Shown here: in pieces, positions 12,808 through 60,015 of the stretch
How the letters are laid out: each line of letters opens with the position of its first letter
Position numbering within the stretch: position 1 is the first letter of the stretch
Assembly (NCBI GenBank): GCA_023853785.1
Contig: JAJIRX010001025.1
Location: forward strand, 1-64,000
DNA from: Psilocybe azurescens
Lineage: Eukaryota; Basidiomycota; Agaricomycetes; Agaricales; Agrocybaceae
Direction of reading: 5' to 3'
Length of the DNA stretch: 64,000 nucleotides
Notes under the pieces: generated by a model
The model's database searches: none
Told to the model about the DNA's origin: nothing
What the model saw: the letters and a program-made list of their open reading frames with translations, nothing else
Program-made: the position numbers and the translations under genes

Positions 12808-12967
12808 GGTGGTTGCAAAGAAAACTAGGGTAACGTGACGAGTGGCGTCACCGTCACGGGTGTCACCGTCCTTCTAGGAGTAGCCGGGCGTGCGCAAGCC
12901 GTTCAGGTTCCCGAACTTGTTATCGACCTACCGCCACTACCACCACAAACAACTCGAATTTGCAAAT
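12808..12967. promoter_or_regulatory. Bidirectional promoter between ATP14 and IATP1
   Basis: The 160 bp between two divergent start codons must hold both promoters and both 5' UTRs. It contains a cluster GTGACG-N5-CGTCACC-GTCACGG-GTGTCACC around 12833-12870, alternating TGACG/CGTCA half-sites of the kind bound by bZIP factors. The binding factor is inferred, not shown. The right part of the cluster (GTGTCACCGTCCTTCTAGG) is repeated at the junctions ahead of IATP2 (about 14402) and the IATP pseudogene. Confidence 0.5.
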
Positions 12968-13527: not shown

Positions 13528-13904
13528 ATCATAAATCGTAAATCATGCACATTGTACATGGATCATGTAGGTCAGTTCCGCGTCCGTCTCTGGAGACATT
13601 GGACAGTTAGCTGATGGAACCTGTTGCAGTCGTCTTTTCGTGGTTTTTTTCTTCTTGTCAAATGCATATTTTCTTATAACAATGAATTCTGAATGAACCC
13701 AAACTCGAGGCTTCATCTCATTCTACCTTCTTCTCTTCGCGCCGTCGTGCGGAACGAGCTGTATGAGGATGTTGTGATAGAATCATACCGCATATTGAAT
13801 GTCATAGCGGAGTCGAGACACACATCCTAGAATCTTAATGCCGATTCTATGCGCTATGGACCAGGAACCTCAACATTTGCCTCGACCATGTGTATGTCGA
13901 TCGA
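13528..13904. repeat. IATP1 3' flank, shared with copies 2 and 3
   Basis: The 3' flank (GGAGACATTGGACAGTTAGCTG..., AATCTTAATGCCGATTCTAT) is repeated behind IATP2 at 15080-15360 and, decayed, behind the third copy at 27300-28070. After CCGATTCTAT the flank joins sequence upstream of the F-box fragment here, but OYE-side sequence (CGATAAAACT) in copy 2. This marks a duplication or deletion breakpoint. Confidence 0.6.
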
Positions 13905-14405
13905 GGCTTGAGCTATGTTTGGAACTCGAGGAAGTGTAGGTCACCGGGACATCTGCTTTTGGGTTTAAGTTCCGACTTTCGATTTTGAGTTCTTGATAAG
14001 ACTACGGCAGGATGCGTCGGCTACATTCACAGTTTCTCGGTCACGGGGCCCAATGTCTACCTCAAACTTGCCTCGAACCACAGCGTTTGCATTTGCGTTC
14101 AAGTTGCCATCGCTGTCAAATCGCTGTCAACCTTTTCATTTCGCTCATATTTCTTCTTCGTACTTGAGTACTGCATCAGAAATCCCCCATACTAAGTTCG
14201 AGAGTAGAGCTGAGATCAACAAGCTGGTGACCCCGAGTCCCCCTAAAATGTCTGATCTTGCTGCTACTCCCCCAGTCCCAGTCCCAGTCCCAGCGCTAGC
14301 GCTAGTACACCGAGCACAGGCAGCAACACACCAGGCACCACCACCGCCACCGACACCGCCACCGCCACTGCTCGTTCCGGACCTCATCTTCCGAATCTCA
14401 CTGGT
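13905..14405 (+). pseudogene. 5' fragment of the F-box gene, copy 1 (truncated, fused to IATP2 promoter)
   Basis: The region from GAGCTATGTTTGGAACTCGAGG through ATG (14248) to ...CTTCCGAATCTC matches upstream and first-exon sequence of the full F-box gene (34795-35515). The match stops in the middle of the F-box and continues directly into the IATP upstream sequence GTGTCACCGTCCTTCTAGG. The CCCAGT repeat is read here as Pro-Val, against Ser-Pro in the full gene, so the frame is also shifted. It cannot make an F-box protein. Confidence 0.8.
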
Positions 14406-14541
14406 GTCACCGTCCTTCTAGGCTCGTTTGAGGAGAGGTCTTAAGCTCTTAAGCCGGGCGTGCGCAAGCTGTTCGGTTTCCCACTTGTTATCGACCTACC
14501 ACCACCACCACCACCACCACAAACAACTCAAATACGCAAAC

Positions 14542-15061
14542 ATGCTCTCTGCTGCCCGTCGTCTCCCCCGCGCTGTCGGCGTCTCTGCGAGACTGTACGC
14601 TACTGGGCCAAGGGGGTTCAGGTACGTGGCTGCGTTACGTGTGTTTGCCCTAATGTCTCTAATGTCTTCCCTACTTTTGACTTGTGCAGTAAGAAGGAGA
14701 AGGCAGAGGAAGGTGTGTTTGCGTGTTGCATGCTGTCCTAACGTTCCCTGTTGTCTGACTCCAGCGCGCTCGCTCGCTCTGTAGATCAATACGCCCGTTC
14801 TCATGAGATGGAGCAGCTCGCTAAATTGAGAGCACAGGTGAGGACTTGTTGTAAGGCTTGTGTTTGGTTTGACTTTGCTGATATTTTCGCTGTGTAGATC
14901 GAGGCAAAGAAGAAGGAGCTGGTTAGTCCCTATGCCGTCCTATCCTATATCAACGTCTGCGTTGAGGCGATTTCTGATGCTTATATACTCTGCTACCTCC
15001 ACAGTCCTCGCTGGAAAAGGACGCCAATGCTATTGACAACAAGACGACGCCTAAGGCATAA
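14542..15061 (+). CDS. Mitochondrial ATP synthase inhibitor, copy 2
   Basis: A paralogue of the inhibitor at 12968, with the same five-exon structure and about 78 residues. It has the same presequence start MLSAARRLPRAVGVSARLY, a deletion shortening the linker (ATGPRGF), core SKKEKAEEDQYA, helix HEMEQLAKLRAQIEAKKKEL and end NKTTPKA. It differs from copy 1 at several positions around the inhibitory core (AEEDQYARS against AHEDQFVHA), so it is not a pure duplicate. All splice borders look intact. It lies behind a chimeric junction with the truncated F-box gene, so its promoter contains only the right part of the ATP14/IATP1 spacer. Confidence 0.85.
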
Positions 15062-15079
15062 ATCATAAATCATGCATAC

Positions 15080-15700
15080 ATGGATCATGTAGGTCAGCTC
15101 CGCGTTCCTCTCTGGAGACATTGGACAGTTAGCTGATGGAACGTGTTACAGTCTTTTCATAGCTTTTCTTGTTGTCGAATGCATATTTCCTTATAACAAT
15201 TAAATGAATTCTGAATGAACCAAACTCTAGGTTTCATCTCATTTTACCTTCTTTTCTTCGCATCGTTGTTCGGAACGAACTGTGCGATGTTGTAATAGAA
15301 TCATGCTGAATGTCATAGCGGAGTCAAGGCATACATCCCTAGAATCTTAACGCCGATTCTATCGATAAAACTAAAAGGAAATCCCCCTTCTTAGGGTTTC
15401 TGCGGGAGAAAGGGGGATGGTTGTTGGATGTTTGCCGCCCTAAGAAACAAGAGGATGCTCATCAATGACTCACGAGAACCATAATGTCAGGGGGAACTGA
15501 ATTGTGATTATGTCTACCTAAGTATACACAGGCTATGTATGACAAAGCCTATATTTTTGAATGAGAAAAAAAACATGGAAGATGGTAAATGAGAACGAGT
15601 ACTGAATTCCGAGAACCAGATAGATGACGAACATGTACTGCCGCATGCCCTCCCATTTGGCAAATGTGCTGAGTACTCATGAGTCGGCGTTCGTTGATCT
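15080..15700. other. Duplicated spacer between IATP2 and OYE1
   Basis: Non-coding. It contains GGAAATCCCCCTTCTTAGGG...CCCTAAGAA inverted motifs and TATGTCTACCTAAGTATACA, all of which recur, decayed, at 28900-29450 in the other duplicate. Confidence 0.5.
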
Positions 15701-16451
15701 TACCTAGAAGAGATGGTGGCTGGTATCAAAGATTTGAGATTATTGAAGGTGGCTACGGCCTGGGTACTGGGCCCAAGTGAGGATGGTCGACTCCAGACAG
15801 ATTTTTGGGGAGGGAGAGAAAAGGATGATACTTCAAGCTTCAAGCTTCAATTGAAGAAGCACTTTGATTCCCTTGAAGTTGGTTTCGTGCTCAGTAGGCG
15901 ATAGAAGGTCAGAGAACTTTGAGGAGCATTTGCCTCGAGGCTCACAAATCTAACGGGGCCACAAATGGCAATTTGTCATACATGAATTCGGTCCTTGTTG
16001 AGGGTTGGCGGATACAACAGAAATGACGGCACATGGCGATGCTGAATAGAGCCCATTCGACACGACAGTGAACAGCAAAATAGAAGAAGGTCGACATCAG
16101 TGTTCTTTCATTGTAAATCTTTGGCAACTCTACGCCTCATAACCGAAGAAATGATCGCACAATGCCGAACCCCAAATAGGCGCCAAATGCTTTACAGTAT
16201 TCAAGAGTCCCAAACTTCCAAGATCCGAATTATGGTTCACGCGCTTTTACTCTCTCAACGTTGCTCCAACATCGACAAATTGGTGTTGTCAAGGACACCA
16301 TGCGAAACCCAAAATTGATTTTCAAGGCAAATATTAACTGGGAAAGTGGCATAAATAAATTTGGAGCTCAGTTTACTATCTAAGTCACTTTGCTCCTTGA
16401 CTGCATCGTCACTGTCCTATTCCACTCCACGACTATCCCAGAAATGGCTCG

Positions 16452-18061
16452 TTATACCGCTGCGGGATAATCTGTATATCCACTGGCATAGTCATCTTGA
16501 CTGGCTGGAGCTTGGAGTAATGGCACCTTAGGAGGGTTGTTCAACGCAATTCCCTGCTCCACACGTTTCGCTAGATCTGGATGGGTAGCCCAATTCAATC
16601 CTATGAAAATGCCGTCGATTTTTCCGGCAGAGATAAGTTCCTCCCCTTCCTCCGGTGTAACATCTGTGTTGAGGAATACTTTTGAGTTTCTAATGTAGGG
16701 ACGATATGCTTCGAGGATGTCATGGTCGGTTCCCCGGAGTGTTCCTAATCGTAGAAATACACAGGTCGCGTCAGACACGTTTCCACTACAGAAAGGTACG
16801 TGCTTCGTCCTACTGACCGTTCAATGCGGCATCCCATACGGCGTTGTAGCGCGCGAGAGCGAAGTACGAAAGGTTTAGCTTATCGGCCTCGCTAATAAAG
16901 TAGGAGAAAGTGTCGAGTGTGTCCTGCAGGGGCATTCTATGAAACTCAGGTAAAGATAAGTGGGGTATATATTCTGCAATATACACTCACCCTAGATCGT
17001 TCAACCCTGCAGCAGGGCTAAGCTTCACCCCTACATCGGGGCCGTAGACGTCTTTCAACGCCTTCAACAACTCGAGGCCGAATCTGGCACGGTTTTCAAT
17101 GCTACCTCCCCATTCGTCGGTGCGTTGGTTGCTATTATAATCAAGGAATTGATGCGGAAGCACACCACTAGAAGCCATTACTAATAGGAAAATTGTTGGC
17201 CATATAGAAGAGACCGAAGAGTGTCTGGCTTAGACATACGTTCAACACCATCGAAGCCCGCTTTTTGGCATTGATGGCGGCATGTACATATTTCCCGATT
17301 AGAACTCGAGGATCGTCTATTGCTGTAGGCTTAACAAAAAGGCGTCAGAGTTTTTGTTCGGTAGTCCTTGGATAGACATACTGTAACAAAGCCAGGTTCT
17401 CCTGGAAGCTGACGAAATTTGCCACCGCGAGCGGCTATCGCAGAGGGTGCATATACAGGCTGTGTATTATGTTCCAATCATGGGTATTGTATCTGAAATC
17501 AACATCTCAATAGAGGACGCACCTCTCCCGCGAGCTTCTGCTCTGGTGTGTCTGGATGAGAAAGCCTTCCGGCTAGACCAACGTTCAATCAATCGAATCT
17601 GGAAAGTTTCCAAAACACATACTATGCCAAAGCTGAAAATCGAAGCTTGGATCAGATCTAGCAGACCAATGACGCCAAACGTGAACGAACCTGGGCGTAT
17701 ATTTTACTGCCTGCACTGTGGACAGCATCCGTGATAATTTTCCAGCCAGCGACATGTTTCTCGTCCCAGAGTCCAGGAGCATTGGGCCATGCGGATCTGA
17801 ATAAAAATAAAAACGACAATTCATGAAGCACACAAGACACGGCAAGTAAAGTCATTGTACTTACCCTTGACGACATATCAGTATGCCTTCTGAAATTATT
17901 AGGCCAGCACCACCAACGGCGCGCTGTACATAATACTCCTTCATAAGTTCAGTAGGATATGTGCCATCGGCACGATTCCTCGTGAGAGCAGACATCCCAA
18001 TGCGGTTCTTCAAGCTGAGACTTCCTACTTGAATCGGTTTGAAGAGATTTTTGGTTGACAT
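16452..18061 (-). CDS. Old yellow enzyme family NADH:flavin oxidoreductase, copy 1 (one frame break)
   Basis: An FMN-dependent TIM-barrel ene-reductase of the fungal OYE/xenobiotic reductase type. Exon 1 begins MSTKNLFKPIQVGSLSLKNR, has the FMN-side SALTRNRADG and ends GLIISEGIL. Further exons give WPNAPGLWDEKHVAGWK, the FMN-binding LWHTGRLSHPD, APSAIAARGGKFRQLPG, DDPRVLIGKYVHAAINA, HQFLDYNSNQRTDEWGGSIENRARF, GVKLSPAAGLND, EAYRPYIRNSKVF-NTDVTPEEGEELISAGKIDG and the terminal GYTDYPAAV. About eight introns. A T run at 17262-17266 leaves the frame one base short just before GFDGVE, and copy 2 shares this. The usual His-x-x-Asn that holds the substrate appears as Met-x-x-Ser (ELMASSGVLPHQF). Activity is therefore doubtful even if expressed. 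Confidence 0.85.
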
Positions 18062-18138
18062 GATGGCAGATACTATTTGACTGTTCTGGATTCTTGAAGG
18101 TGGGGTGTTATTGCTTCGTTGTTCTGAGCGGCAGGTCG

Positions 18139-18145
18139 TTTTATA
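18139..18145 (-). promoter_or_regulatory. TATA box of OYE1
   Basis: TATAAAA on the minus strand about 80 bp ahead of the start codon at 18061. The same box is kept in OYE2 at 33218-33224. Confidence 0.5.
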
Positions 18146-18169
18146 GGTGCATGGTGTTGTAATCCGGGC

Positions 18170-19305
18170 CGTAGTCAATCCTTGAATGTCAATTTCATAT
18201 CCTTATGGAATGAATACAGATCCATACTTGGTCTTAAGCGCAGTTGGTGTTTGTAATCAGCAGTACCGGAGCATTGACACGGATGGACTGTAACAGTGGA
18301 TACAAGACTTGACGGTATGAAAATAGTGATGCTTACTCAAATCATATTACGCATAGATCACGACTGTGTAAAGAGTGGGCGTAAATCCACAACCAAGCAT
18401 GACGCTAAACTGTCACTTTTGTCAGCCTGCTGAAACATGATCCCAATCTCGTACCAATACGATCTACTAATAGTCCTACTAGTCAATTAAATTGCGTTAT
18501 GCAAAAGTGGTAATCGTCACATACTTACTATATACAGATACATCGCTTTAGCTCCTAGATAACGAAATTTGTGACGTGAAAATCTAGCTAGTAAAGCAGC
18601 AGTGCGACATGCGTGCATGTCAATAAGGGGTTTCACGGTAGGCCATTTTCAACTATCCAAAAACAGCTCCCTCCTCTTAGTTTTACATCATTTTTCGTTC
18701 GTTCTTCCTTTTGTTCGCTTTTTGCGCACTCCCACTATCCAGATATTTAAAAAAGAACACACGAAAATGGAGCTGTTCCGGGGCTTTCACGAGGTGCCGT
18801 TTTTTTATGATTTTTTCAATTCAAAAAAGACATTGAAAAATGACTCAAAAACGGCCAGAAAATGTATGACTATGAACGCCATCTGAGCGTCTCAACCGGA
18901 ACGTCTACTGCAGGCTGTGGCAGTGAGTGGCTTGCGGAATCCATATATCAATGTAAGCCCATGCGTCTACGAATCCATCGCCGTTCATTGCAATCTGACC
19001 ACTCATTTGCATCTTTTATGGCTGCCGTCTGACGAGCCTGGTAGCAAATCTTTCCTTTTGTTATAAATGTCGTTGTTTGTTGAAGGAAACGAACGAGGCC
19101 CGAGAGGCGCCTCACCAAAAGCACCGCCGTGCTTGGCATCGGCATATGTACACCGCAGGCGCCCAACGCGTGTGCGCGATCGGAATTTTTTTCCCTTTTG
19201 TGTTTACATTTATTTCTATCTACTAAATTTTCCATACGATAAATTCCCACCCTTCTCATCCAATGCACCTCAGTCGGTTCTTTATCTGACTGAGGTGAGC
19301 ATCCT
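18170..19305. other. Duplicated non-coding flank upstream of OYE1
   Basis: No gene is recognised. Most of it matches 33245-34165, including GACTATGAACGCCATCTGAGCGTCTCAACCGG. From about 19070 to 19300 the two copies diverge. Confidence 0.5.
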
Positions 19306-19559: not shown

Positions 19560-19966
19560 GAAATTCCATTTTTAACCGCCCTTAAGTGTCTGAAACGGGT
19601 ATTTCCGCCCCAAAAGTTGTGAATCTAAAAATGGAGGAATTGCATGCTGAAATTCCGAGTGCCAAAAACGTACATTTAAGGTATGAAATATGGCTCAGGA
19701 GAAAGATTGCGTTTCAGATCGAAAATCCGCCATCATATTCTTACTAAAAACAGTGGAAATTTTATACTTCATGTTAAATTTATGTCCAAAAAGATATTCT
19801 GCCTTTATTCTGCCTAAAGAAGTCTATATTTCATCACTTTTCAATTATAACCTCACAACCGCTGCTCCATTAAATTTAATTTTTGGCACTCTCATAGAGA
19901 CAGCTTATATGCACATTAATTTAAATTATATATATTTTTGTATTCCATGTAAGGGTCAAAATATTA
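19560..19966. other. AT-rich low-CpG stretch left of MITE
   Basis: No gene recognised. The frame at 19690-20085 runs into the MITE terminal repeat and is not credible as a gene. Confidence 0.4.
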
Positions 19967-20466
19967 GGCAGTTTGTGTGGAGCCACGGGAGCCACCCGTG
20001 GCAAAATGTTGATGTGTCATTCCGGCCCGTGGCTTGCTTGTGGCTGGCCTGTGGCTTTGATCGACGATGTTGGCGGGTTTTCTGAGGCGCATATTGCACA
20101 AATATTAGACCCTTTTCATTGTAGTGACTGTACGATGTAAATATTAATCTCCTGCAGGTTCAGGCTGTCATATCTTTGTAAAATTGGTAGAAAATTTGAG
20201 GTAAAAGTAAGCTTAAAAACTAGTCTTTTTGTCAACTTCTCATGTTTAGATTTCTTCACAAACACTTAAGATGGAATGTAGGCATCTCATGGTAACTTTT
20301 AAACTTTTTTTCATCCTTTTGCACATCTTATTATTAGTATTATAGACATATGAAAACTGGTGAAAACAGTCATTTAGCCACAGAAAAGCCACGAGCAAGC
20401 CACAGGCCGGAATGACACATCAACATTTTGCCACCGGTGGCTCCTCGTGGCTCCACACAAACTGCC
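19967..20466. mobile_element. 500-bp MITE with about 95-bp terminal inverted repeats and TA target site
   Basis: The left end GGCAGTTTGTGTGGAGCCACG is matched by the inverted right end, and similarity extends for about 95 bp on each side (AAAATGTTGATGTGTCATTCCGGCC... on both arms). TA dinucleotides stand directly outside both ends (19965-19966 and 20467-20468), as for Tc1/mariner/pogo-type transposition. No transposase is inside. The arms keep CpGs although the surrounding sequence is CpG-poor. Confidence 0.85.
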
Positions 20467-21235
20467 TATTGTAATGAATGTGCCAAAAAGTGTAATATCA
20501 GGCTCTGACATTGCAAAATGGCTTCTTTTTCTCCAGTTTTTTTTTTCATTGTGCATAACAAATAATTTAGTATCTTGCTTATAATTTTTTGAAGCTATAA
20601 GGTGTAAGGAAGGATGGTAAAAATACAGGTGTGACAAGACACTGAAATAGTCAACAAAGATTTTAAACCCCAACATATACATTTAGGCTTCCCTCGGATT
20701 TTAAATATTCATTACAATTCATGTTGATGATTGCAAAATTGTGTGTGACCTGTGTGTGACAACTATTCTAGACACTAGGTCCCTTTCTTTTCCCTGATTC
20801 CTCTCTTTCAATGTCAACTCTTAGAAATAAAAAACATATTATTGTAGCTGAAATGCCAAGCTTTACAATGGTAAACATTTTATAAAAATTAGTGCAGAAC
20901 TCGTAAAGATATGCTTTGGTCTTTAAAAATTTACAAACACTGGGTTAGTGATAGTAACAGGGCATGGGGTGGAATTTCTTATCTTTCTGCAACATTTCTG
21001 CACTTTTGTAAATCCTTTATTTATTACACAATCTCTGCTTGGGCAAGAGCTCCACTATGGTCAATAATAGCCCATTTTCCATGATCATAAACATGACCAA
21101 CAGTACACTGAATAGCATTGAGGTCAACAACCTCAATGGGGCCCATCTTGCTCATAATACTTTATTCCCAAGGTATTTTGACTATCAAGTTTGACAGATC
21201 AAATGGCAGCAAGACACAGTGTGGTCTCATGGCTT
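20467..21235. other. CpG-poor AT-rich sequence without a gene
   Basis: Nothing coding is recognised between the MITE and the solo LTR. CpG is nearly absent. Confidence 0.5.
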
Positions 21236-21659
21236 TGTTATGAACACTTTATTTTTCTTTTGCTTTTGCTTTTCTTTTTCTTTTCTTTTCATTTTTGCAT
21301 ATAAAAACCTTCTTATCACATGATGGACAACATCATGTGATCGTGATATTGACTCGTTCTACTCTGACTCATGTTGTCGACACCATTATGACTCGCTTCC
21401 GTTCTGACTCACGTTCTGACTCACGTTGACGGCACTATAGTGACTCATCCTATGCTTGACTCATACTTGGACTCATTTCATACTATCTTTGTAGATACTC
21501 AAAATGCTTAAATAGCCAGTAGACACTGCTATTGTTCCTTAGCTAGTTCTTGAGAATCTAATCTACTCTTACCCAATACCGGCTTGGAAACTCGCTGTTC
21601 TTGACTACTTGACTGTCGGCTTTATCCATGCACATGAATATAAGCCTGAAGTTGTAACA
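21236..21659 (-). mobile_element. Solo LTR A (424 bp) with GGCTT target duplication
   Basis: The sequence begins TGTTATGAACAC and ends AAGTTGTAACA, with perfect 5-bp flanks GGCTT at 21231-21235 and 21660-21664. It contains a long T/C-rich run near one end and clustered TGACTCG/TGACTCA units (21350-21470). It is related to the solo LTR at 27415-27840 in opposite orientation: both share the pyrimidine/purine run and TAGCTAGTTCTTGAGAATC. No internal element is attached. Confidence 0.85.
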
Positions 21660-21810
21660 GGCTTGTTCCAAGAGTAGCACTGGCTGGAAGAGTTAAAATA
21701 AAGATACAGAGAAGCTGGCCATAGAAATCTTGTTGTTCAAATGCAGGTGTTCAGCTTCGATGACAGGCATGTCTGTTAACAAGAAGTTGGTACTAATTAA
21801 AAAAAAATGA

Positions 21811-22510
21811 TCAACTAATTATAACACATTGTAAATTTATACCTACCTGGCAATAAGTTGCATCATGAGCATCATTTGGTGATTTGACAAGTTCTGATGC
21901 ATGGATGATATCACCTCCTCCAATGTGTTGAACCTTTCCAAATTGTAAGACTTTGGTTTCTGGATTAGGAAGCACTTGGTGAATAGTTTGAATAGGCTTT
22001 TCAAAAAATGTTGCAAGTGCAGCAGATACCTTGTTCCATAAATGAGGTGATAGCATCTCTTGTTGACGTGGTGGTAATAGATGGCTATGATCATCTGTAC
22101 ACAATGAAACAGTCAGTAAAATTCAAGCAAAAAGAGTACATGACACACATTTTCAACATGGAACCCAGCTGCATTATCTTCAAATTTCTTGAATGAGAGC
22201 TCTGAATATAGATCATACATTGATTTGATCTGTATAAGTTGTGCTTGGTCCATAATGAAGTTGTCAATATTGGTGTATGGTGAGCAGTGGTTTTGATGGC
22301 AGGCAATATGTTACCACAGAATTTCTCCATTGGAAAGGCCCAATAAGCCCAAAACTGGACCAGCAACTCTAATTTCTGGACCAATATGAAGTAAACTTTG
22401 AACTGTAAGAAGGCAGAGAGGAAGCCTGGTTTTGGAGTTCCCAATTTCCCATCTTCTCCAGAGTGTTTAATTAGCAATTTATCCAGTTCATTTGATCCTA
22501 TCATCTTCCA
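21811..22510 (-). pseudogene. Decayed CACTA/tnp2-type transposase C-terminal region
   Basis: Two minus-strand blocks resemble the C-terminal part of basidiomycete tnp2/CACTA-like transposases. The upstream block has YFILVQKLELL, then a W-A-F-P-M-E-K-F-C-G-N-I-L-P-A-I-K segment (about 22290-22400). The downstream block has LPPRQQEMLSPHLWNK and VLQFGKVQHIGGGDIIHASE (about 21880-22090). Frames are broken between the blocks. No catalytic residues remain and no terminal repeats were found. Family assignment rests on my recognition of these motifs. Confidence 0.5.
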
Positions 22511-22915
22511 AACTCTTCATTCTTCCTCTACACTTAGATCCTCAACTCTCCATCACTTCCATTGTTCAGGAATATTTTATTCAGCAACCTTGGTCTTGGT
22601 GTCATGTTTATCCATCACTCTAGTCATCCTTTATCTGCAAAAGCCACAAAGCCAGAAGTAAGGCCTGGTGACAGAGTAATGGCTAGAGCAGTCAAAGGTG
22701 ATGATGTAAGCAATATTCTTGGACCACAAAGTCAAACAGAGCAGCAAGGCAGATAAAGGATGACTAGAGTGATGGATGAAGATGACAACAAGACCAAGTT
22801 TGCTGAATAAAATATTCCTGAACAATGGAAGTGATAGAGAGTTGAGGATCTAAGTGTAGAGGAAGAATGAAGAGTTTGGAAGATGATAGGATCAAAATGA
22901 ACTGGATAAATTGCT
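22478..22915. repeat. Long palindrome: about 160-bp arms around a 110-bp loop
   Basis: The arm at about 22478-22640 (AATTTATCCAGTTCATTTGATCC ... CATCCTTTATCTGC) is repeated in inverted orientation at about 22750-22915 with few mismatches. The transcript would fold into a long hairpin. It overlaps the upstream end of the decayed transposase, so it probably arose by inverted duplication in it or is a foldback element. No target duplication was identified. Confidence 0.8.
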
Positions 22916-23129
22916 CTGGGATGCAAGAGTGTGAATGGAGAGTTGTCTGTTCCAACCCTTGAAGGACATCTTGAATAACTGGAATAACTGCTGATTTTTG
23001 TGCTGAATACTGATGATAACTTTCTTGAGTGCCTACTGGAGTGCTGAAACTGAGTGCTGATAACTTGAAAATTTTCTGTGAAGAAAGTTGGGGCTTGTAA
23101 CTTCCTTGCATTCCAAGCAATACTACTAC

Positions 23130-24410
23130 ATGGTTTATATATTAGAGAACATAGAAAAATATTTAAAAGAGGTCAAACATCCAAACTATACTAATCTTTC
23201 TGTAGAACAACACCCAGTAGTCCTATCTGCCAACTACATACACTAGAATGAAGGCTGATGGAGTTTAGTAGTGAAAAACAGAAGGATGAGTAGGTAAGTA
23301 ACATAGGATGAGTAAGTAAGTAACATAGGATGAGTAAGAAGTATAAGCAGGATTATGAAAAGCAAAGTGAGATGAGTAAGAAAGAAGTGAAGCTGAGTAA
23401 GTACAATAAGCAAGAATGACAAAAGAAAGGAAGGATCAATCATATGAAAGTGTCAGACAATAGAAAAGAGCCAAAATAGCAAACAAGTACCATGCTAATG
23501 AATAGAACCAGTCTATTCATGGCACAGCTCAGTCATCCATTACCAAGACTGCTGAGTGAGACAAAGATTTTCTGTATATGTGGAATCCAGTTAAGAACCA
23601 AATAGTTGTAGATTACCAAATGCTGATGATGATGGTGATATATGATGCTGTGCAGTGCAGTGCATACCAGGATGGATAGGGATGAAGTCCAGAAATAAGT
23701 TGTGCATAGCCTTGAGGTTTGAAATGGTTAGATGATTTTGTTGAAGAGGAGACTGAAAGTTGGAATGGAGATTGAAGTGGACTGTGAATGGGCTTTGACA
23801 TTGAATATTGAGGGATGTGTTTCAGATAAAAATGTGAAATAATAACCCTGGCTTCTGTATGCAATGGGGAGTTAAGACAGACACTCTAAGATTATAGATA
23901 AATCTCATATCCAATCAAAATTGGTGTATGACAGCAGGTGATTGCCTAATTTAGTGAACAGCCTTTGTGAGGTCTGGGCACAGGGATTGCTTTAATTAAG
24001 GTTTCCACCACTTGGTGATTGCTTGTAAGAGACTGATGGGTGTTACCCCTTGTAAGATCCAAGGTCACTTCTTCTTAGAAGTTTTTCTGTGCATGGGACT
24101 AATAGCATAGTCAATGGTGCAGGTGATTGCCTCAGTGGCTTGGTTAGGGCTGCTTTGATATCTGTGTAGAAAACTAAAGGTAGTCTTTGGTTTGTAGTGC
24201 TGATTAATAGGCCACACTACCCCTTAGTTAGTTTGTAAGATTTACTATGCTCATTGGTCCCACTAGAAAGTGAAGTCTCAAAGCCTAATAATCTGGTGTA
24301 TCTTCTACCCTTCACTAGTATAATATATTGGCTTATTACAGATAACAATCACAAAAATAAGGACCTCTGTGTCTCACTATGAATTGTAAGCTCAGAATGG
24401 TTTACACCTT
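23130..24410. other. CpG-free non-coding stretch
   Basis: No gene recognised; practically no CpG. It contains a minisatellite (23245-23400). The short frames are translations of low-complexity sequence. Confidence 0.5.
23245..23410. repeat. Degenerate minisatellite, AGGATGAGTAAGTAAGTAACAT-like units
   Basis: The unit GGATGAGTAAGTAAGTAACATA is repeated nearly exactly two to three times and then decays into GATGAGTAAGAAAGAAG/GCTGAGTAAGTA units. It gives spurious leucine-rich frames on the minus strand. Confidence 0.6.
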
Positions 24411-24850
24411 TCAGTGACATTCACAGTTTCTTGGTCACAGGGCCCAATGTAACTGTTCACCTCAAACTTGTCTTTGCATAATGAGTTTCTTATAAAGATC
24501 AGTCATGGGTCTACCACTGTTCTTGTTGCTTGCTGTTTGTATTCAAGTTGCCATCTCTGTCAAATAGCCTTTTATTTTGCCTGTAGTTCTTCTTTGTACT
24601 CAGGTACTACATCAGAAATTCCCATACTAAGTCTATGAGAGTAGAGCTGAGATCATCAAGCTGGTGACTCCTGAGTCCTCCTAAAATAGATTTTGCTGCT
24701 GTGCCTTCCAATCCCAGTCCCAGACTCCCAGAGCTAGCACTAGTACACTGAACACAAACAATAGCACACCAAGCACCACTGACATTGACACTGCAACCAC
24801 CACTCCTTGTCCTGGACCTCATCTTCCAAATGTCACTGGTGTCACTGTCT
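24410..24850 (+). pseudogene. 5' fragment of the F-box gene, copy 2 (CpG-depleted)
   Basis: It matches 14025-14405 closely, including the same truncation point fused to IATP upstream sequence (CTGGTGTCACTGTCTTTCTAGGCTC). Almost every CpG of copy 1 is TpG or CpA here, for example TTTCTCGGTCACGGGGCC has become TTTCTTGGTCACAGGGCC. The start ATG is lost (AAAATAG). Non-functional. Confidence 0.8.
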
Positions 24851-25462
24851 TTCTAGGCTCATTTGAGCAGAGGTCTTAAACTAGACATGCACAAGATGTT
24901 TGGTTTTCTACTTGTAATTGATCTACCACCACCACCACCACAAACAACTCAATTTACAAACATGCTAGACTGTAAATTACTGGGCCAAAGCTACTTGGGT
25001 ACATGGCTGCATTACATGTTTGCTCAATGTCTATGATGTTTTCTCTACTTTCTCTGGTATCTTCTCTACTTTTTCCTCTTGTTTTCTTTTTCCTCTTCTG
25101 ACTTGTGCATTAAGAAGGAGAGGGCAGAGAAAAAGTGTGTTTGTGTGTTGCATGCTATCCTGACATTTGTTGAAAAGACCAAATTGATCAGATAAAAACA
25201 TGTGATTGGGAGGTAAACACGTAGTGTACAATAATGTAAATACTGTACTTATATACTGTAAATACAATTTATACTAACTAAATTTACTCTATAACGGAGA
25301 ATTCAGTTTATATAAAAATTCTACATACTTGTGGCTGTGTATTCAGTGCACGGGATCACAGGAATTGTGCCATTTGATTCCCATATTCCAACACACCCTC
25401 GCAAACAGCAAAATAACCAGAAAATAAGACAAAAATAAAATAAAAAATCACACCCTCAGAAA

Positions 25463-26261
25463 CTAAAAAGCTTCATCATCATCAGAGTCATCTTCCAAAG
25501 CAAGAGCAGCATGCCCTATAGATCCAGATTTGATGGGATGGGGACTGGAAGAATTGGTGCAGTTGGACTGATAATGACCTTTCTTACCACATGAAAAACA
25601 AGTGATGTGGGCAATACCATGAGAGGGGGGCACCAGTAACAGCCATAGCTTCATTCTGGGGGTCCTCAAGCTTGTGCTTGGTGTGGGGGATATTGGTGTT
25701 GGCGCTGGTATTCATTCATGAGGCAGGTGATAATGTAGGTGAGTGTATATTCATTGTCTGGGGTGGCATCGAGTGAAATAAGAAAAGAGACATATGAATG
25801 GGGAAGTCCTGAAGTAATGGCAAGAATAAGGTTGTCCTCAGTGACCTTCACACCTGCTTCCTCAAGAAGAAATGCAATATGGCAGACATGGGCAATGTAG
25901 GCAGACATGACTTCACCACAATCAAGGTGGAGATGGTGAAAACAGCGACAGAGAGAAATAATGGTGGAGCGACCACGTGATGTATGAATATCTGAGAGTG
26001 TTTTCCAGATGACAGAGGGGTCCGGGTTACAGCAATGAGCAAGCTGGGAAGGGGTTACACAAAGAATGAGCTCTGCACAAGTCTCAGATTGCTTGCACAT
26101 AAATCCTTGACTTTCTTGGTCTGTTCAGTCCCCTCAGAGTGTTCTGCAGTGCCATCCACATAATCCAATAAGCCCTTGCAAGTGAGTAAGGCTTCCATGT
26201 AAATCTTCCACTCAAAATAATTCCCATCAGTGAGTTTGTCAAAGGTGGTTTCGGACAGCAT
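25463..26261 (-). pseudogene. Copia-type gag, frame-broken
   Basis: In order on the minus strand: MLSETTFDKLTDGNYFEWKI with the Y-x-x-W-K start of copia gag (26261), LILCVTPSQLAHC and DPSVIWKTLSDIH, ITSGLPHSYVSFLISLD, then a CCHC zinc knuckle CFSCGKKGHYQSNC (about 25570-25610) and an acidic end. Frame changes lie near 26085-26105, near 25670, and in the C run near 25625-25633. These are typical of an element that is itself decaying. Confidence 0.8.
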
Positions 26262-26652
26262 GATGGCACACTAAAAATAGATTTGATGATAGCAACGATG
26301 GTAACAATGATAAAATGATGGTTCCGGCTGTGATTTGGCTTCTGCAAGCAATTCAGATTTGGTGGTGATTTGGCTTCCACAAGCAATATCGGCTCTTGGT
26401 GAGCAAGGTTACAATGACAATGACAATGATAACAATTTGACAAAAGGGATTTGGCCCCAGTAGGCAAGAACAACAAACAGAAACAAAGAGAGTGCAAGGG
26501 ATGGCAAGGAACTGGCAGCAGAAACAGTTAGGGTCACGTGTTTATGTTGAAAGACCAAATCAATCAGATAAAAACTGTGTGATTGGGAGGTAAACGTGTA
26601 GTGTACAATAATGTAAATACTGTACTTAAATACTGTAAATACAATTTATACT

Positions 26653-26860
26653 TGTTGGGAATGTGCTCGGACATTCCACACATTTAGCTTATAGATTTAC
26701 CTTATTAATTATCTTACTAATAATCTCTCAGGCTCAGTTATACCATACATAGAAATATTTAGATGCTGGTAGATTATTCTAGTTACAGTATATACATGTA
26801 TATAAGTAGCTGCAAAGTCTACACAATAAAATCGAGTATTCCAAACATAAATTGTCAATA
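26653..26860. mobile_element. 208-bp solo-LTR-like insertion nested in the retrotransposon LTR
   Basis: Absent from the left LTR, where the uninterrupted sequence is TTTATACTAACTAAA. It starts TGTTGGGAATGTGCTCGGACATTCC and ends ATTGTCAATA, flanked by ATACT at 26648-26652 and 26861-26865. The right end AATA would be the expected AACA with one C-to-T change. It must be younger than the host retrotransposon. Confidence 0.75.
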
Positions 26861-27414
26861 ATACTAACTAAATTTACTCTATAACAGAGAATTCAGTTTA
26901 TATAAAAATTCTACATACTTGTGGCTGCATATTCAGTGCACAGGATCATGGGAATTGTGCTGTTTGATTTCCATATTCCACCAACATTCTCTGTTGTCTG
27001 ACTCTGCCATGCTTGCTTGCTCTGTAGAACAATACACCCATTCTCATGAGATGGTGCAGCTTGCTAAATTGAGAGCACAGGTGAGAACTTGTTGTAAGGC
27101 ATGTGTTTGGTTTGACTTTTCTAACATTTTTGCTGTGTAGATCAAGGCAAAAAGGATGAGCTGGTTAGTCTCTATCCTATATCAATGTCTGCATTCAGGC
27201 AATTTCTGATGCTTATATACTCTGCACCTCCACAGTCCAAACTGCAAAAAGGATGCCAATGCTATCAATAACAAGACAACACCTAAATCATAAACCATAT
27301 AGGTCAGCTCTGTGTCCCTCTCTAGAGCATTGGATAGTTAGCTGGTGGAATATGTTGGAGTCTTTTGTAGTTTTTTCTTGTTGTCAAACACATATTTCCT
27401 CATAGCAATAAACT

Positions 27415-27840
27415 TGTTACGATCTCAAGTTAGAATCACGCAGTGTGCATAATCTAACCACCAATCGTTACAAGAACAAGTTCAAGTTCAAGTTGAACAG
27501 GTTAAGCAGGTTGGATTCTCAAGAACTAGCTAAAGAATACAGTGGATCCTTCCTGGTATAAATACTATGAACTGTACAGCAAGTTGAAATGAGATTTGAA
27601 TGTTCATCAGCAGATGTATATAAGAATAGTTGAAACGAGATCAAGCGTTCATCAGAGGATGTATCATAAAAGATGGAAGTGAAAGTCCATCAAGGATATG
27701 ATGGAGTTTTGTAGATATGATGGAGGTGAAAGTTCATCAGAACATACAATGATGTATCAATGATGTGAAAGATAACAAAGAAAAGGAAAAGAAAAGAAAA
27801 GAAAAAGAGAAAAGAAAAAAGAAAAAGACTTGTCATAACA
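27415..27840 (+). mobile_element. Solo LTR B (426 bp) with AAACT target duplication
   Basis: It begins TGTTACGATCTC and ends TTGTCATAACA, flanked by AAACT at 27410-27414 and 27841-27845. The empty site is visible behind IATP1 and IATP2 (AACAAT..GAATTCTGAATGAAC). An A/G-rich run near its 3' end and GATTCTCAAGAACTAGCTAA relate it to solo LTR A in the opposite orientation. It keeps CpGs that its surroundings have lost. Confidence 0.85.
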
Positions 27841-28071
27841 AAACTCCGAATGAACTAAACTCAAGGCTTCATCTCATTGTACCTTCTTCTCTTTGCATCA
27901 TTGTTCAGAACAACCTGTGATACTGTAATAGAATTGTGCTGAATGTCATATCACAGTCAATTTCCTTATAACAATGAATTCTGGAGGAACCAAACTCAGG
28001 GCTTCATCCATCTTGTTCTACCTTCATCTCTTCACATTATTGGGCAAAACAAACTGTGTGATGTTATAATA

Positions 28072-28897
28072 CAGTCAGACCCCTTTTAATCTATATCTCT
28101 TAAAACTCATAGCCCCTTATAACCCATAGCCCCAGTTGTCCACCAACTTGGTTCACAGAGAACTGCATACCATAACCCATACCCCTCTGCCAGAAAAATT
28201 CATAGATTTTGCCTACTATAGATTGGCTTGGACCTTAATTTAGTAGTAAAATATTTAGTTCACTGACAGCTCATTTGAGTAATGCACTGGTGAAGCCTCT
28301 AATGACTAAAAAAACATTTTCACATTTTCTAGCTTCTCAGTCAGAGCAGTGGTGCATCACAACTAGGACTTGCAAGAATACTCTAACAGCAAGGCTGGCA
28401 AAAGGAAGCCATGTTACCATATGATGAACTCTGGTTGGATAATGAAGCAAACACTATCAACAAGGAACATATTCTTCAAATACTGGAGTCAGCTTCAGAC
28501 TATGAGCATGTGGTGGCACAATTGATGATACAGAGAAAGCAATTATTCAGAAGCTTCCAATATGTCAGCCACATTATCAATGACTCTGCTGCCTGCAAAA
28601 TTAAAAGCACACCTAGGCTCATTGAACAGGAAGCTACATCTTGACTCTTGAGGAGATCAGGACAATAAGAAATACTGTAGTGACTCACTTTTTCAGACCA
28701 GGGGTATCAAAAATCATAGTGCATTAAATATATGAGTAGTATTTGTTTTGTAGTCTTCAAATATTTTTAATAAATTTTAACAATTTTTTCTCAAAATTTC
28801 AAGCCTATTTTTAGTATACCTCTTGAAACCCATAAACCCTCATAACCCATAGCCTGGGCTATCCACTGAAAGATATGGGTTAAGAGGGGTCCAACTG
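28072..28897 (+). mobile_element. Internally deleted pogo/Tigger-like DNA transposon
   Basis: The left end CAGTCAGACCCCTTTTAATC and the inverted right end CAGTTGGACCCCTCTTAACC form terminal inverted repeats that continue, more weakly, for about 70 bp (CATAGCC.. and ACCCATA.. blocks). TA precedes the left end. The right flank reads TG, and comparison with IATP2's flank suggests a small deletion or mutation there. Interior coding sequence is only a transposase tail. Confidence 0.65.
28411..28680 (+). pseudogene. C-terminal remnant of a pogo-type transposase
   Basis: The frame MLPYDELWLDNEANTINKEH followed by an acidic/helical tail resembles the region after the DDE domain in fungal pogo/Tigger transposases. 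The stop at about 28643 is followed by an in-frame-like THFFRP block (about 28685). The DNA-binding and DDE domains are absent. Confidence 0.4.
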
Positions 28898-29521
28898 TGG
28901 ATAAAACTATAGAGAAACCTCCTTTCTTAGAGTTTCTCCAGGAGAAAGAGGGGTTGATAGTTTGCTTATTGAGAAACATCTCTAAAAGTACTTGAGTATA
29001 CCCAAAACAGAACTGGTCAGCAATCAATTGATTAGTCAGAGGCTGCATGTGTGAGTGTGTGTGATGCCTCAACACAATTACAAGTTCTTGTGTTCAAGCC
29101 TTTCCAGTCCAACTGGCAGCACTTTCCACTGTAGGCTAAATAAAATTGTTGCTCAATGACAAACTATCTACAACTGGCATATATATGGACAGAGGTGAAT
29201 GCCTTGAAACTTGCTTGAAAACTGTATTCTTAAGTGTTGTCAAATTAACATGAATTCCCTACCTTTTACCAATCTCATGATGATTGTTGGATGGCTGTCA
29301 TCTGAAGAAACAAGAATAAGTTCATCAATGACTCACAAGGACCATAATGTCAAGGGGGACTGGATTGTGATTATGTCTACCTAAGTGTACATAGGCTATA
29401 TATGACAAAGTCTCTATATTTTTAAATGAGAAAAAAATGGAAGTTGGTAAATGAGAACAAGTACCAAATTGTGAGTACATATCAAATGATTCATTAGTGC
29501 AGCTTAAATGATTGAAGCTTA
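28898..29521. other. Decayed duplicate of the IATP-OYE spacer
   Basis: Matches 15365-15620 with nearly every CpG lost and an additional insertion of about 200 bp near 29080-29280. No gene. Confidence 0.55.
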
Positions 29522-30668
29522 GAGTCAGTTCAGCAACATGACACCTGGCATGTCATTTGCCCTGGCATATCATATTTGGTGTGATAACTATCATGTGATG
29601 TTACCATATATCTTTTGTCATCCATTTTCAACAAACATCATGAGATGTGACTAATAAGGGACAAAGGAGTCCAAAATGGAAGGTGCTTGCAAAAAAACAC
29701 AGTAAATGCAAATTGATGGAACAGTGGGCTCAAAATTAGAATTCTGCTTTCCACAAATGATAGTAATAAGTGTTTTAAATATTATACAAAAATTTTGTAG
29801 TGATCTGTGAAGAACCAAGTGAGTTATTTTCCAAAGAAGGTCAATCAATGTTTGATTGGCAATGACCATGACAGATTGGTTCCACAACACTTCCTTTTTG
29901 ACTCTGAAGACAGCAAAAGCACACTTCTAGCATGCTGTGTAGTAGTGGATATCTAAAAACATTTCTATCAAGAAAATAACAATACTAATACATGAAACTG
30001 CACATTTTTCTTTCTGATTGGATCCTCTAATTCTGTATTATGACATTTTTTTGTATTTTTAAGGGCCTCTCCTCTGATCCTCCATGAAGATTTTGGATAT
30101 TGATAACTTTTTGACATTTTGGTCAGGCCATATGAATAAACAAGAGTAATTCACAAAAGAATAATCAGATATAGAGACGCAATGTGTACATCAGGTGGGG
30201 TACACTAGTACCATTGTTTTGGAAACAACTCTGTAAAATCACTCTATTTGTCTACAAAATTTTGCATGAGCATGTTTTTTTATAATCTCTACACTTTGTG
30301 GGAAGCACATTTGTCAAAATCTATACCAATTTCTTTAAATTTGTGTTTTGTGTCTAATTACCACCTCACCTTCCTTCTTACTTTTTCACCACATCCTTTG
30401 GCCCTCTCTCTACTGTTGATGGCCCATAATTCTTTGGTGTTCAGGCCTTTAAGGAGTGGGCCCATTACACGCAGTATAAAACCCTCGACTTTTATACACA
30501 ACCCTAAGTATTAGTAATCTGTAGAATGTACCGAAACAAATGTTTTGCGTGGCATCACATGATAATTGTCATGCAGGAAAGTACAAATATAATCAAATCC
30601 GAAAGATACTAAATAAGTCAAGTCGGTAGTAGGATGACACGCCAGGTGTCATGTTGCCAAACTGACTC
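29522..30668. mobile_element. 1.15-kb MITE/non-autonomous element with TA target site
   Basis: The left end GAGTCAGTTCAGCAACATGACACCTGGC and the inverted right end GAGTCAGTTTGGCAACATGACACC pair over about 40 bp. Subterminal similarity (ATYATCATGTGATG) continues inside. TA flanks both ends (29520-29521 and 30669-30670). It is missing from the equivalent site in the other duplicate (about 15630). No transposase frame. The left arm has CATGTC where the right arm keeps CGTGTC, so CpG loss affected one end only. Confidence 0.8.
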
Positions 30669-30789
30669 TAATTATACTGTTCAGATGGTTGCATTTATCA
30701 CACAACCAGGTGGATGACGAACATGTACTGCTGCATCCCCTCCCATTTGGTAAATGTGCTGAGTATTCATGAGTCATTGATCTTGCCTA

Positions 30790-33700
30790 GAAGAGATGGC
30801 GGATGGTATCAAAGATTTGAGATTATTGAAGGTATCTAAGGCATGGGTACTGGGCCCAAGTGAGGATGGTGGACTGCAGACAGATTTTTGGGAGGGAGAG
30901 AAAAGGATGATACTTCAAGCCTCAAGCTTCAATTGAGGAAGCACTTTGATTCTCTTGAAGTTGGTTTCGTGCTCAGTAGGCGACACAAGGTCAGAGAACT
31001 TTGAGGAGTACTGCCTCGAGGCTCACAAATCTAGTGGGACTATAAATGGCAATTTGCCATACATGGATTTGGTCCTTGTTGAAGGTTGGCGGATACAACA
31101 GAAATGACGGCACATGTCGATGCTGAATAGAGCCCATTCGACACGACAGTGAACAGCTGAATAGAAGAAGGTCGACGTCAGTGTTCTTTCATTGCAAATC
31201 CTTGGCAACTCTACGCCTCCATAACCGAAGAAATGATCGCACAATGCCGAAAATAGGCGCCGAATGCTCTACAGTATTCAAGAGTCCCAAACTTCCAAGA
31301 TGCGAATAATGGTTCACGCGCTTTTATGCTCCCAGCGTTTCTCCAACATTGACAAACAGGTGTTGTCGAGGACACCATGCGAAACCCAAAATTGATTTTC
31401 AAGGCAAATATTAACTGGGAAAGTGGCATAAATAAATTTGGAGCTCAGTTTACTATCTAAGTCACTTCGCTCCTTGACTTTATCGTCACTGTTCTATTCC
31501 ACTCCACGACCATCCCAGAAATGGCTCGTTATACTGCTGCGGGATAATCTGTATATCCACTGGCGTAGTCATCTTGACTGGCAGGAGCTTGGAGTAATGG
31601 CACCTTAGGAGGGTTGTTCAATGCAATTCCCTGCTCCACACGTTTCGCTAGATCTGGATGCGTGGCCCAATTCAATCCTATGAAAAACCCGTCGATTTTT
31701 CCGGCCGAGATAAGTTCCTCCCCTTCCTCCGGTGTAACACCTGTGTTGAGGAATACTTTTGAGTTTCTAATGTAGGGACGATATGCTTCGAGGATGTCAT
31801 GGTCGGTTCCCCGGGGTGTCCCTAGTCGTAGAAATACACAAGTTGCGTCAGACAGGTTTCCGCTACAGAAAGGTACGTGCTTCATCCTACTGACCGTTCA
31901 ATGCGGCATCCCATACGGCGTTGTAGCGCACGAGAGTGATGTACGAAAGGTTTAGCTTATCGGCCTCGCTAATAAAGTAGGAGAAAGTGTCGAGTGTGTC
32001 CTGCAGTGGCATTCTATGAAAGTCAGGTAAAGATCAGTGGGAATATATCTTCTGCAATGTACACTCACCCTAGATCGTTCAGCCCTGCAGCAGGGCTAAG
32101 CTTCACCCTACATCGGGACCGTAGACGTCTTTCAACGCCTTCAACAACTCGAGGCCGAATCTGGCACGGTTTTCAATGCTACCTCCCCATTCGTCGGTGC
32201 GCTGGTTGCTATTATAATCAAGGAATTGATGCGGAAGCGCTCCACTAGAAGTCATCACTAACAGGGAAATTGTTAGCCATATAGAAGAGACCGAAGAGTA
32301 TCTGGCTTAGACATACATTCAACACCATCGAAGCCCGCTTTTTAGCATTGATGGCGGCATGTACATATTTCCCGATTAGAACTCGAGGATCGTCTATTGC
32401 TGTAGGCTTAACCAAAAGGCGTCAGAGGTTTTTATTCAGCAGTCCTTGGATAGACATACTGTAACAAAGCCAGGTTCTCCCGGAAGCTGACGAAATTTAC
32501 CACCGCGAGCGGCTATCGCAGACGGTGCATATACAGGCTGTGTATTATATTCCAATCATGGGTATTGTATCTGAAATAGACATCTCAATAAAGGACGCAC
32601 CTCTCCCGCGAGCTTCTGCTCTGGGGTGTCTGGATGAGAAAGTCGTCCGTCTAAACAAATGCTCAATCAATCCGGATCTGGAAATTTTCCAAAATACATA
32701 CTATGCCAAAGCTGAAAATCGAAGCTTGGATTAGATCTAGCAGACCAATGACCCCAAGTGTGAACGAACCTGGGCGTATATTTTACCACCTGCACTGTGG
32801 ACAGCATCCGTAATAATTTTCCAGCCAGCGACATGTTTCTCGTCCCAGAGTCCAGGAGCATTGGGCCATGCGGATCTGAATAAAAATAAAAACGACAATT
32901 CATTAAACAGACAAGACACGGCAAGTATAGTCATTGTACTTACCCTTGACGACATACCAATATGCCTTCTGAAATTATTAGGCCAGCACCACCAACGGCG
33001 CGCTGTACATAATACTCCTTCATAAGTTCAGTAGGGTATGTGCCATCGGCACGGTTCCTCGTGAGAGCAGACATCCCAATGCGGTTCTTCAAGCTGAGGC
33101 TTCCTACTTGAATCGGTTTGAAGAGATTTTTGGTCGACATGATGGCAGATACTATTTGACTGTTCTGGATTCTTGAAGGTGGGGTGTTATTGCTTCGTTG
33201 TTCTGAGCAGCAGGTCGTTTTATAGGTGCATGATATTGTAGTCGGGACCGGAGTCAATCCCTAAATGTCAATTTCATAGCCTTATGGAATGAATGCAGAT
33301 CTATACTTAGTCTTAAGCGCAGTTGGTGTTTGTAATTCGCAGTACCAGAGTCATTGATACGATGGACTGCAACGGTGGATACAAGACTTGACGGTACGAA
33401 AATAGTGATGCTTATTCAAATCATATTACGCATAGATCACGACTGTGTACAGAGTGGGTGTAAATCCACGACTAAGCATGACGCCAACTGTCACTCTTAT
33501 CAGCCCGCCGAAACATGATACCAATCTTGCATCAATACTACGATCTACTAATAGTCCTACTAGTCAATTAAAATTGCGTTGTGCAATAGTGGTAATCTCC
33601 ATACTGACTATATATACAGACACATCGCTCTAGCTCCTAGACGACGAAATTTGCGACGTGAAAATCTAGCTAGTAAAGCAGCAGTACGACACGCGTGCAT

Positions 33701-34165
33701 GTCAGTAAGGGGTTTCACGGTCAGCCATTTTCAACTTTCTTTTGATGTCTGTTTTTGATGTCTTTTTGACATCTCAAAAAAACTGTTTGTCAACTATCCA
33801 GAAACAGCTCCCCTCCTTTTACATCAATTTTTCGTTCGTTTTTCACTTTGTTCGCTTTTTGCGCACTCCACTGTGCAGATATTTTAAAAAGTGACTCAAA
33901 ACGGCCAGTAAATGTGGCCGTTAATTTATGCTTGAGTGCGATCCTGCAACCATTCATTCATATTTCCGTATGACTATGAACGCCATCTGAGCGTCTCAAC
34001 CGGAATGTCTACTGTAAGCTGTGGCAGTGAGTGGCTTGCGGAATCCATATGTCAATGTAAGCCTATGCTCTTCGTCTTCGATGTTCATTGCAATCTGACC
34101 ACTAATTTGCATCTTTTATGGCTGCCGTCTGACGAGCCTGGTACATAGCAACCTTTCCTTTTATT
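30790..34165 (+). repeat. Segmental duplication carrying OYE2 (mate at 15700-19070)
   Basis: Direct duplicate of the OYE1 region. CpGs are retained here although the sequence directly left of it, in the same duplicated unit, has lost them. Confidence 0.85.
31529..33140 (-). pseudogene. Old yellow enzyme, copy 2 (two frame breaks)
   Basis: Same exon plan as OYE1: MSTKNLFKPIQVGSLSLKNR at the start, APGLWDEKHVAGWK, PEEGEELISAGKIDG and GYTDYPAAV at the end. It shares the one-base shortfall before GFDGVE (T run 32339-32343). In addition it has three C where OYE1 has four (32106-32108 against 17028-17031), which puts a stop after YGPDVG. The HxxN substrate pair reads Met-x-x-Ser (LMTSSGALPHQF). 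It is a pseudogene if the run lengths are correct. The TATA box at 33218-33224 is intact. Confidence 0.75.
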
Positions 34166-59839: not shown

Positions 59840-60015
59840 GTACTTCGCCGAATTCAACCTGGTGCCACTCATTCTCACCGCATTGTTAGCTTCGTCCGGT
59901 TACAACTCTCAAAGATCATTGCTACAAATCGTGGAATGTTAGAGAAGGACACGATGCGGTTTCAGCTTCGAGTTGGAGCTTTCAACTTGGACAAAGCTCT
60001 GGTCAACCTGAAATC
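59840..60015 (-). repeat. Dispersed repeat, copy 2 (inverted mate at 55-225)
   Basis: Landmarks TTCGCCGAATTCAACCTGGTG, CGCATTGTTAGCTTCGTCCGG and GACCAGAGCT-complement match the repeat at the left end of the window in reverse complement. Confidence 0.6.

Follow-up and report, generated by a model that had tools for sequence, protein, structure and literature searches.

A CpG-depleted, transposon-rich domain of Psilocybe azurescens in which decay appears to follow location rather than duplication

Results and discussion

We analyzed a stretch of 64,000 nucleotides of Psilocybe azurescens DNA (the window; positions 1 to 64,000 of the forward strand of contig JAJIRX010001025.1, assembly GCA_023853785.1), in which the CpG observed/expected ratio (o/e) drops from about 1.0 almost to 0 at about 20.1 kb and recovers to normal at about 31.0 kb. 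The loss is specific to CpG and is shared by both haplotypes, and the genome contains sequences of a methylation machinery. The cause is very probably that heterochromatic transposons were methylated at CpG and that the methylated bases were then deaminated. A few comparisons indicate that the decay depends on location and not on duplication or on the age of the elements.

The best two-changepoint segment (left borders of 15-26 kb and right borders of 26-36 kb were tried, in steps of 5) was 20134-30965, which holds 53 CpG against 388 expected (log-likelihood gain 395), and CpG o/e in the remainder of the window was 1.01. TpG and CpA were raised in the segment (o/e 1.42 and 1.37, compared with 1.07 and 1.05 outside), and GC content was 0.38 compared with 0.47. 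A preliminary description of this DNA had placed a sharply bounded CpG-free domain of about 10 kb at 20467-30470, with CpG-normal flanks and plentiful TpG and CpA, and had proposed the comparison of ratios just given, in which the domain indeed lies far below its flanks in CpG. The "about two" CpG that it saw in 21661-25160 are exactly two (21758 and 22067), and 27850-30170, reported as almost CpG-free outside inserted elements, contains zero. The domain is real, but it is less uniform than described, as it includes CpG-bearing insertions, and its right edge lies later. Position 30470 is the first CpG of a denser run, and sparse CpG continues to about 31.0 kb, with 6 CpG against 19 expected in 30704-31100; the proximal counterpart of this interval is also low (o/e 0.60 in 15501-16000). 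The left edge, 20467, falls where a short inverted-repeat element (19965-20468) ends. Three insertions that the allele does not have carry 34 of the 53 CpG; without them, 7329 bp of 20469-30465 hold 6 CpG and 1213 TpG plus CpA.

Fate of the lost CpG

The domain contains a decayed copy of a gene called IATP here, a name taken over from the preliminary description as a label only. None of the 62 CpG aligned with the proximal paralogue was kept; 26 had become TG, 27 CA and 9 other dinucleotides (14 of the 72 CpG of 14000-15327 fell in gaps and were left out, as were 2 of 139 in the control pair of OYE-family duplicates). Control pairs kept 111/137 (OYE) and 29/40 (IATP2 to IATP1) of their aligned CpG. 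The substitutions previously pointed out at 14030 against 24425 and in the IATP exon were found in the alignment, and tabulation by context, a check that had been suggested together with them, revealed that substitutions were concentrated at CpG. From 14000-15327 to the domain, C>T affected 50% of CpG bases, compared with 12.8% in CpA, 15.0% in CpC and 9.4% in CpT, in agreement with the earlier view that this decay is CpG-specific and not the CpA-type repeat-induced point mutation (RIP). A value of 50% corresponds to about one hit per CpG, that is, to saturation. When the changes were polarised with a third IATP copy, all 24 ancestral CpG had been hit (48 bases, 24 C>T), and C>T was found at 24 of 245 non-CpG C/G bases.

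No RIP-like clustering of hits on one strand was observed in the paralogue (26 runs compared with 25.5 expected), nor were there strand runs in four copies of a terminal inverted repeat (TIR) transposon. There was no preference for TCG (strand hit 41, spared 31, p 0.29), and GCG was slightly spared (23:42, p 0.025, uncorrected).

Location versus duplication and age

The distal OYE-family duplicate adjoins the domain, is 3 kb long and 93% identical to its proximal counterpart, and surpasses every other local duplicate in length and similarity, yet it was spared, as the control pair above indicates. Duplication as a trigger, a trait of RIP sensu stricto, was thus not seen.

The right-hand drop falls inside a single TIR transposon. 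At the CpG sites of the copy on contig C2, the window copy kept 1/25 up to 30465 and 7/14 beyond (p 0.0014), and the allelic copy kept 2/25 left of the cut and 9/14 right of it (p 0.0004). The copy on contig C408, whose CpG-normal flank lies on the opposite side, kept CpG at 5 of its first 10 sites and at none of the other 29 (p 0.0004, at a cut picked after inspecting the data). On the right side of the domain CpG loss is near-complete until about 240 bp before the transposon end and fades to about 31.0 kb. In the OYE flank the first 200 bp lost 2/5 CpG in the window and 1/5 in the allele; no trend was visible in the later bins, where loss varied from 0 to about 2 in 7.

The C2 copy has a CpG o/e of 0.93, lies between CpG-normal flanks (0.95 and 0.93) and keeps 39 of 48 family CpG, whereas the copy on C716 has an o/e of 0.29 and keeps 11/48. 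Private non-CpG changes were alike in these two copies (12/859 and 10/857); they numbered 16/871 in the window copy, and the C542 and C408 copies, with 35/882 and 33/880, are older. With the allele rows excluded, the o/e of the element followed the mean o/e of its flanks (rho of 0.81 at n=7 and of 0.71 at n=11). The set of seven includes two partial copies, L030 and L031, which were left out of the multiple alignment together with the window's own entry, L024. Since the OYE duplicate was spared, and the C2 copy was spared at equal non-CpG divergence, decay appears to track position.

Haplotypes and continuing decay

The genome assembly (70.4 Mb, 937 contigs) contains a second collinear copy of the region at 97-179 kb of contig C755, which differs by 2.2-4.7% according to segment, counting substitutions only; the assembly probably derives from a dikaryon. 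The CpG-poor domain is common to both contigs and is therefore not an assembly artefact. Inside the domain the haplotypes differ by 2.6%, no more than outside, indicating that most of the decay predates their split. Of 18 domain sites with CpG on at least one haplotype, 2 have it on both, and the remaining 16 read TG or CA on the second haplotype; in the flanking segments 79-92% of such sites are common to both. This pattern is consistent with the loss of new CpG at roughly the rate of their formation.

The three insertions not found in C755 have readable empty sites there, with target duplications, and CpG o/e values of 0.76 (21236-21659), 0.26 (25168-26983) and 0.44 (27415-27842). The two long terminal repeats (LTRs) of one element are identical at insertion. 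In the LTR pair of the 25168-26983 element 8 CpG-derived sites differ, and 12 of the 16 states are decayed; 4 sites decayed on opposite strands, with TG in one LTR and CA in the other. Across 206 aligned columns the pair otherwise shows some gaps and six base mismatches, three of which adjoin a gap. In the OYE control pair, 3052 columns contain a single opposite TG/CA site. The decay of this element thus appears to be in progress. Further LTR pairs were sought in seven CpG-poor or nearby loci without a clear pair being found; one locus (L019) has two short diverged repeats.

Two features of C755 lie beside these results. Diverged tandem repeats with a period of about 170-176 bp occupy 138245-139264 and 140350-141292 (L014 and L015), inside a 3.5-kb insertion of the allelic domain that is found only in C755. 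At the left border of that domain, 12.9 kb (118728-131630; CpG o/e 0.64) have no aligned counterpart in the window and are possibly a younger, partly decayed transposon block.

Methylation machinery and host

An exon-wise profile search of the genome gave two PF00145 matches over the cut-off, on contigs C550 and C582, which in comparison with PDB matched chains labelled Rad8 (7r76) and DNMT1. At exon level the first matched chain 7r76_A with E 3.5e-84 and the second had E 3.5e-11. We take 7r76 to be the DNMT5 of Cryptococcus. In the excerpts available of the papers cited here and below, DNMT5 is a SNF2-methyltransferase fusion related to Rad8 (PMC13297926). Putative CpG methyltransferase sequences, DNMT5-like and DNMT1-like, are thus present in the genome. 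SAD_SRA gave 4 of 5 matches over the cut-off and Tet_JBP (PF12851) 11 of 15; transposon-borne TET/JBP genes have been reported in mushrooms (PMC12730594).

Among the matches listed (120 of 7978), the spliced OYE protein was closest to Psilocybe cyanescens (87%), and the top named matches were gilled mushrooms. No Psilocybe methylome was found among the top matches in the open-licence literature.

Cause of the decay

The explanation we favor is that the stretch would be a heterochromatic transposon island, CpG-methylated now or for long in the past. Transposons would have landed between and into the units of a local duplication (F-box 5' part, IATP and OYE), and a methylated domain would have formed over the block, engulfing one IATP copy. 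Methylated CpG would then have deaminated to TpG or CpA until nearly none remained. The edge would be fixed locally, decay stopping short of running through the OYE copy, and fresh insertions into the block would begin to decay in turn. We infer that the domain's CpG carry or once carried methylation, and that the damage came from deamination and not from an active mutator. Methylation with deamination, which the preliminary description had put forward, fits most of the tests, but leaves the raised non-CpG C>T described below unaccounted for.

Several observations weigh against this explanation. Non-CpG C>T was raised on the domain branch (42/377 compared with 31/603, odds 2.3, p 0.0007), an effect not expected from CpG methylation alone. 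The decay is also steep, an equilibrium argument giving a per-base CpG loss that exceeds the T>C rate about 61-fold (39-99). When split at the cut of the window copy, the C408 transposon copy gave 5/25 and 0/14 (p 0.14), the copies on C716 and C542 showed no split (p at least 0.44), and the CpG-normal comparison copy on C2 is a single locus. Furthermore, repeats of Agaricus bisporus are methylated yet are reported to lack a RIP-like AT shift (PMC7473861), so methylation need not bring such decay.

As to the steepness, the same equilibrium estimate puts CpG loss about 20-fold above non-CpG C>T in the domain itself, a figure obtained by dividing the CpG/T>C ratio by about 3 (domain-branch non-CpG C>T, 42/377, compared with A/T transitions, 18/509). 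With the mammalian ratio for deamination of 5-methylcytosine as the yardstick, such an excess could be within reach of spontaneous deamination.

The preliminary description had also offered a CpG-targeted premeiotic mutator. In a RIP-like form, it would sense duplicated DNA and hit both copies in the sexual cycle. C>T does fall mainly at CpG, CpG decays far faster than other changes, and much of the domain consists of repeats or duplicates; CpG-biased hypermutation has been called RIP in Ganoderma (PMC4457147) and discussed as RIP in Tricholoma (PMC6980582). However, both the OYE duplicate and the C2 transposon copy keep their CpG, the latter at equal non-CpG divergence, the proximal IATP and F-box copies are CpG-normal, and the CpG drop cuts through a single element. 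The hit strands form no runs and show no TCG preference, and the two methyltransferase matches resembled DNMT5 and DNMT1 in the PDB comparison, with no separate search made for RID. We found this proposal unsupported and regard it as very unlikely.

A mutator confined to silenced chromatin regardless of copy number, for example an enzymatic deamination, would fit both the dependence on position and the fast loss of CpG, and could account for the raised non-CpG C>T. On the other hand, no such enzyme was identified, none having been searched for, the approximately 20-fold excess may not require one, and the unclustered strands and partial decay of the insertions look gradual; we give this alternative even less credence. 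That the domain was CpG-poor by origin, as its AT-rich transposons and low GC content might suggest, or that it is an assembly artefact, is hardly credible and is refuted by the paralogues, which show that CpG were once present, the CpG-normal copy of the same TIR transposon, the raised TpG and CpA, and the agreement of the allele on a separate contig.

A bolder form of the methylation reading can be stated, although we think it rather unlikely. The TIR copies of the window (on the right) and of C408 (on the left) keep CpG mainly in the approximately 250 bases nearest to CpG-normal DNA, as if the flanks held methylation off by a fixed short distance. The mutation pattern would then be a fossil map of a heterochromatin border at nearly nucleosome scale, and the copies of a single element could serve to read the position of borders genome-wide over evolutionary time. 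In its boldest version, an enzyme would deaminate methyl-CpG in silenced chromatin, which would explain why CpG is lost so fast and why non-CpG C>T is also in excess.

Relation to known systems

CpG-biased decay of transposons together with methylation is already known, and this locus is a well-resolved case. In Ganoderma sinense, RIP-affected transposable elements are nearly all methylated and the bias is to CpG (PMC4457147), and CpG hypermutation has been described in Tricholoma matsutake (PMC6980582) and Rhizoctonia solani AG8 (PMC4014442). The domain shares with these Agaricomycetes CpG-biased C>T in repeats (here 53/62 CpG to TG or CA in transposon-rich DNA), no CpA preference and, in the genome, a DNMT1-class enzyme; in R. 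solani AG8 the C>T bias extends to genes (PMC4014442). In contrast to them, decay here, as known from sequence alone, appears to follow location over duplication, and the drop is resolved inside one element. In A. bisporus nearly all CpG methylation lies in repeats, and its border at large clusters is clear (PMC7473861), much as is proposed here; no RIP-like decay was inferred there, AT content being unchanged, whereas in this domain hardly any CpG is left. RIP of Neurospora and other Pezizomycotina shares C>T in repeats, but its CpA preference and homology trigger were not seen. The TpCpG hypermutation of Pucciniomycotina (Microbotryum; PMC4352252, PMC4014442) shares a CpG-containing target, but not the absence of TCG preference found here (41:31).

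The available excerpts differ on Agaricomycetes: hypermutation is stated as not detected in Agaricomycotina (PMC12730594), and CpG-biased RIP or RIP-like patterns are reported in Agaricomycetes (PMC6980582, PMC4457147). Amselem et al., as excerpted, tied the CpG signature to Masc2-class enzymes and suggested methylation and deamination similar to methylation induced premeiotically. Whether Agaricomycetes mutate repeats by a homology trigger or merely by methylation decay is disputed, and this locus helps to tell the two apart through internal controls, namely a spared duplicate, a TIR copy spared at the same divergence outside CpG, and retention on opposite sides of one element. What the locus adds is that such internal comparisons set location apart from duplication and from age.

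Other CpG-poor stretches

The picture given by the preliminary description was incomplete in that the domain is one of several CpG-poor stretches, is shared by the allele and has its right-hand drop inside one transposon. On the window's contig (C883), CpG-poor 500-bp windows fill 67001-68000 and much of 70501-79932, and 181001-190000 of C755 consists mostly of such windows. On these two contigs, a biased choice since they hold the domain, 37/159 and 47/220 windows of 500 bp had an o/e below 0.5. Four 10-kb stretches were also sampled, one of them chosen for its TIR copy; C779:280001-290000 had an o/e of 0.14 and the other three were normal (0.95, 1.00 and 0.86). CpG-poor, transposon-rich islands are not rare in this genome.

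Anatomy of the region

The unit of the local duplication is made up, in order, of the F-box 5' part, IATP and OYE. CpG is largely normal in the left unit (13.9-19.5 kb) and in the distal OYE and F-box (30.7-35.5 kb). Between them lie repeats (20.5-24.4 kb), two of which were searched for and recur many times in the genome, the decayed IATP copy, which is interrupted by a copia-type element and a solo-LTR-like insertion, and the TIR transposon. The gag of the copia-type element lies on the minus strand at 25666-26124 (PF14223, E 2.3e-16). The short element at the left border had no alignment longer than 150 bp in the allele, and a tRNA scan of the window found none.

Table 1. Features of the CpG-depleted domain and its surroundings (positions in the window)
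Feature	Position	Strand	Remarks
Proximal IATP copies and flanks	12915-15620	+	CpG normal; reference for decayed paralogue
Proximal OYE-family duplicate (FMN oxidoreductase, PF00724)	15614-18657	-	CpG normal
Short element at left border, inverted ends of about 93 bp (92% alike)	19965-20468		CpG o/e 0.58
CpG-depleted domain	20134-30965		Best segmentation
Repeat family	20469-21235		2 CpG, 23 expected; at least 58 matches, many fragmentary (40 of 101 candidates scored)
Solo-LTR-like insertion with TG...CA ends and a target duplication of 5 bp	21236-21659		Not in C755; CpG o/e 0.76
Imperfect palindrome, 443 bp	22473-22915		0 CpG; in allele, left part (to 22772) inverted, right part direct
High-copy repeat	22916-23944		0 CpG, 33 expected; at least 40 matches (40 of 209 first-look candidates scored)
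Decayed paralogue of the 5' parts of the F-box gene and IATP (about 14000-14740)	24415-25167	+	0 CpG
Short copia-type LTR element	25168-26983		Not in C755; CpG o/e 0.26; gag on minus strand
Decayed paralogue of IATP exons and introns (14740-15203)	26984-27414	+	0 CpG
Solo-LTR-like insertion	27415-27839		Not in C755; CpG o/e 0.44 (over 27415-27842)
Decayed IATP 3' paralogue	27843-28077	+	1 CpG
Decayed paralogue of 15416-15616	29279-29478		0/4 aligned CpG kept
TIR transposon, inverted ends of about 38 bp	29519-30671		Contains right CpG drop
Distal OYE-family duplicate, 93% to 15614-18657	30704-33739	-	CpG largely normal; control

In both OYE copies (about 17250-17290 and 32325-32365) the frames around a short A-run seem, by eye, not to join in the raw DNA, reflecting either a missed intron or an old shared frameshift. 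A 170-bp repeat is present in inverted copies (78%) near both ends of the window, at 56-222 and 59844-60018.

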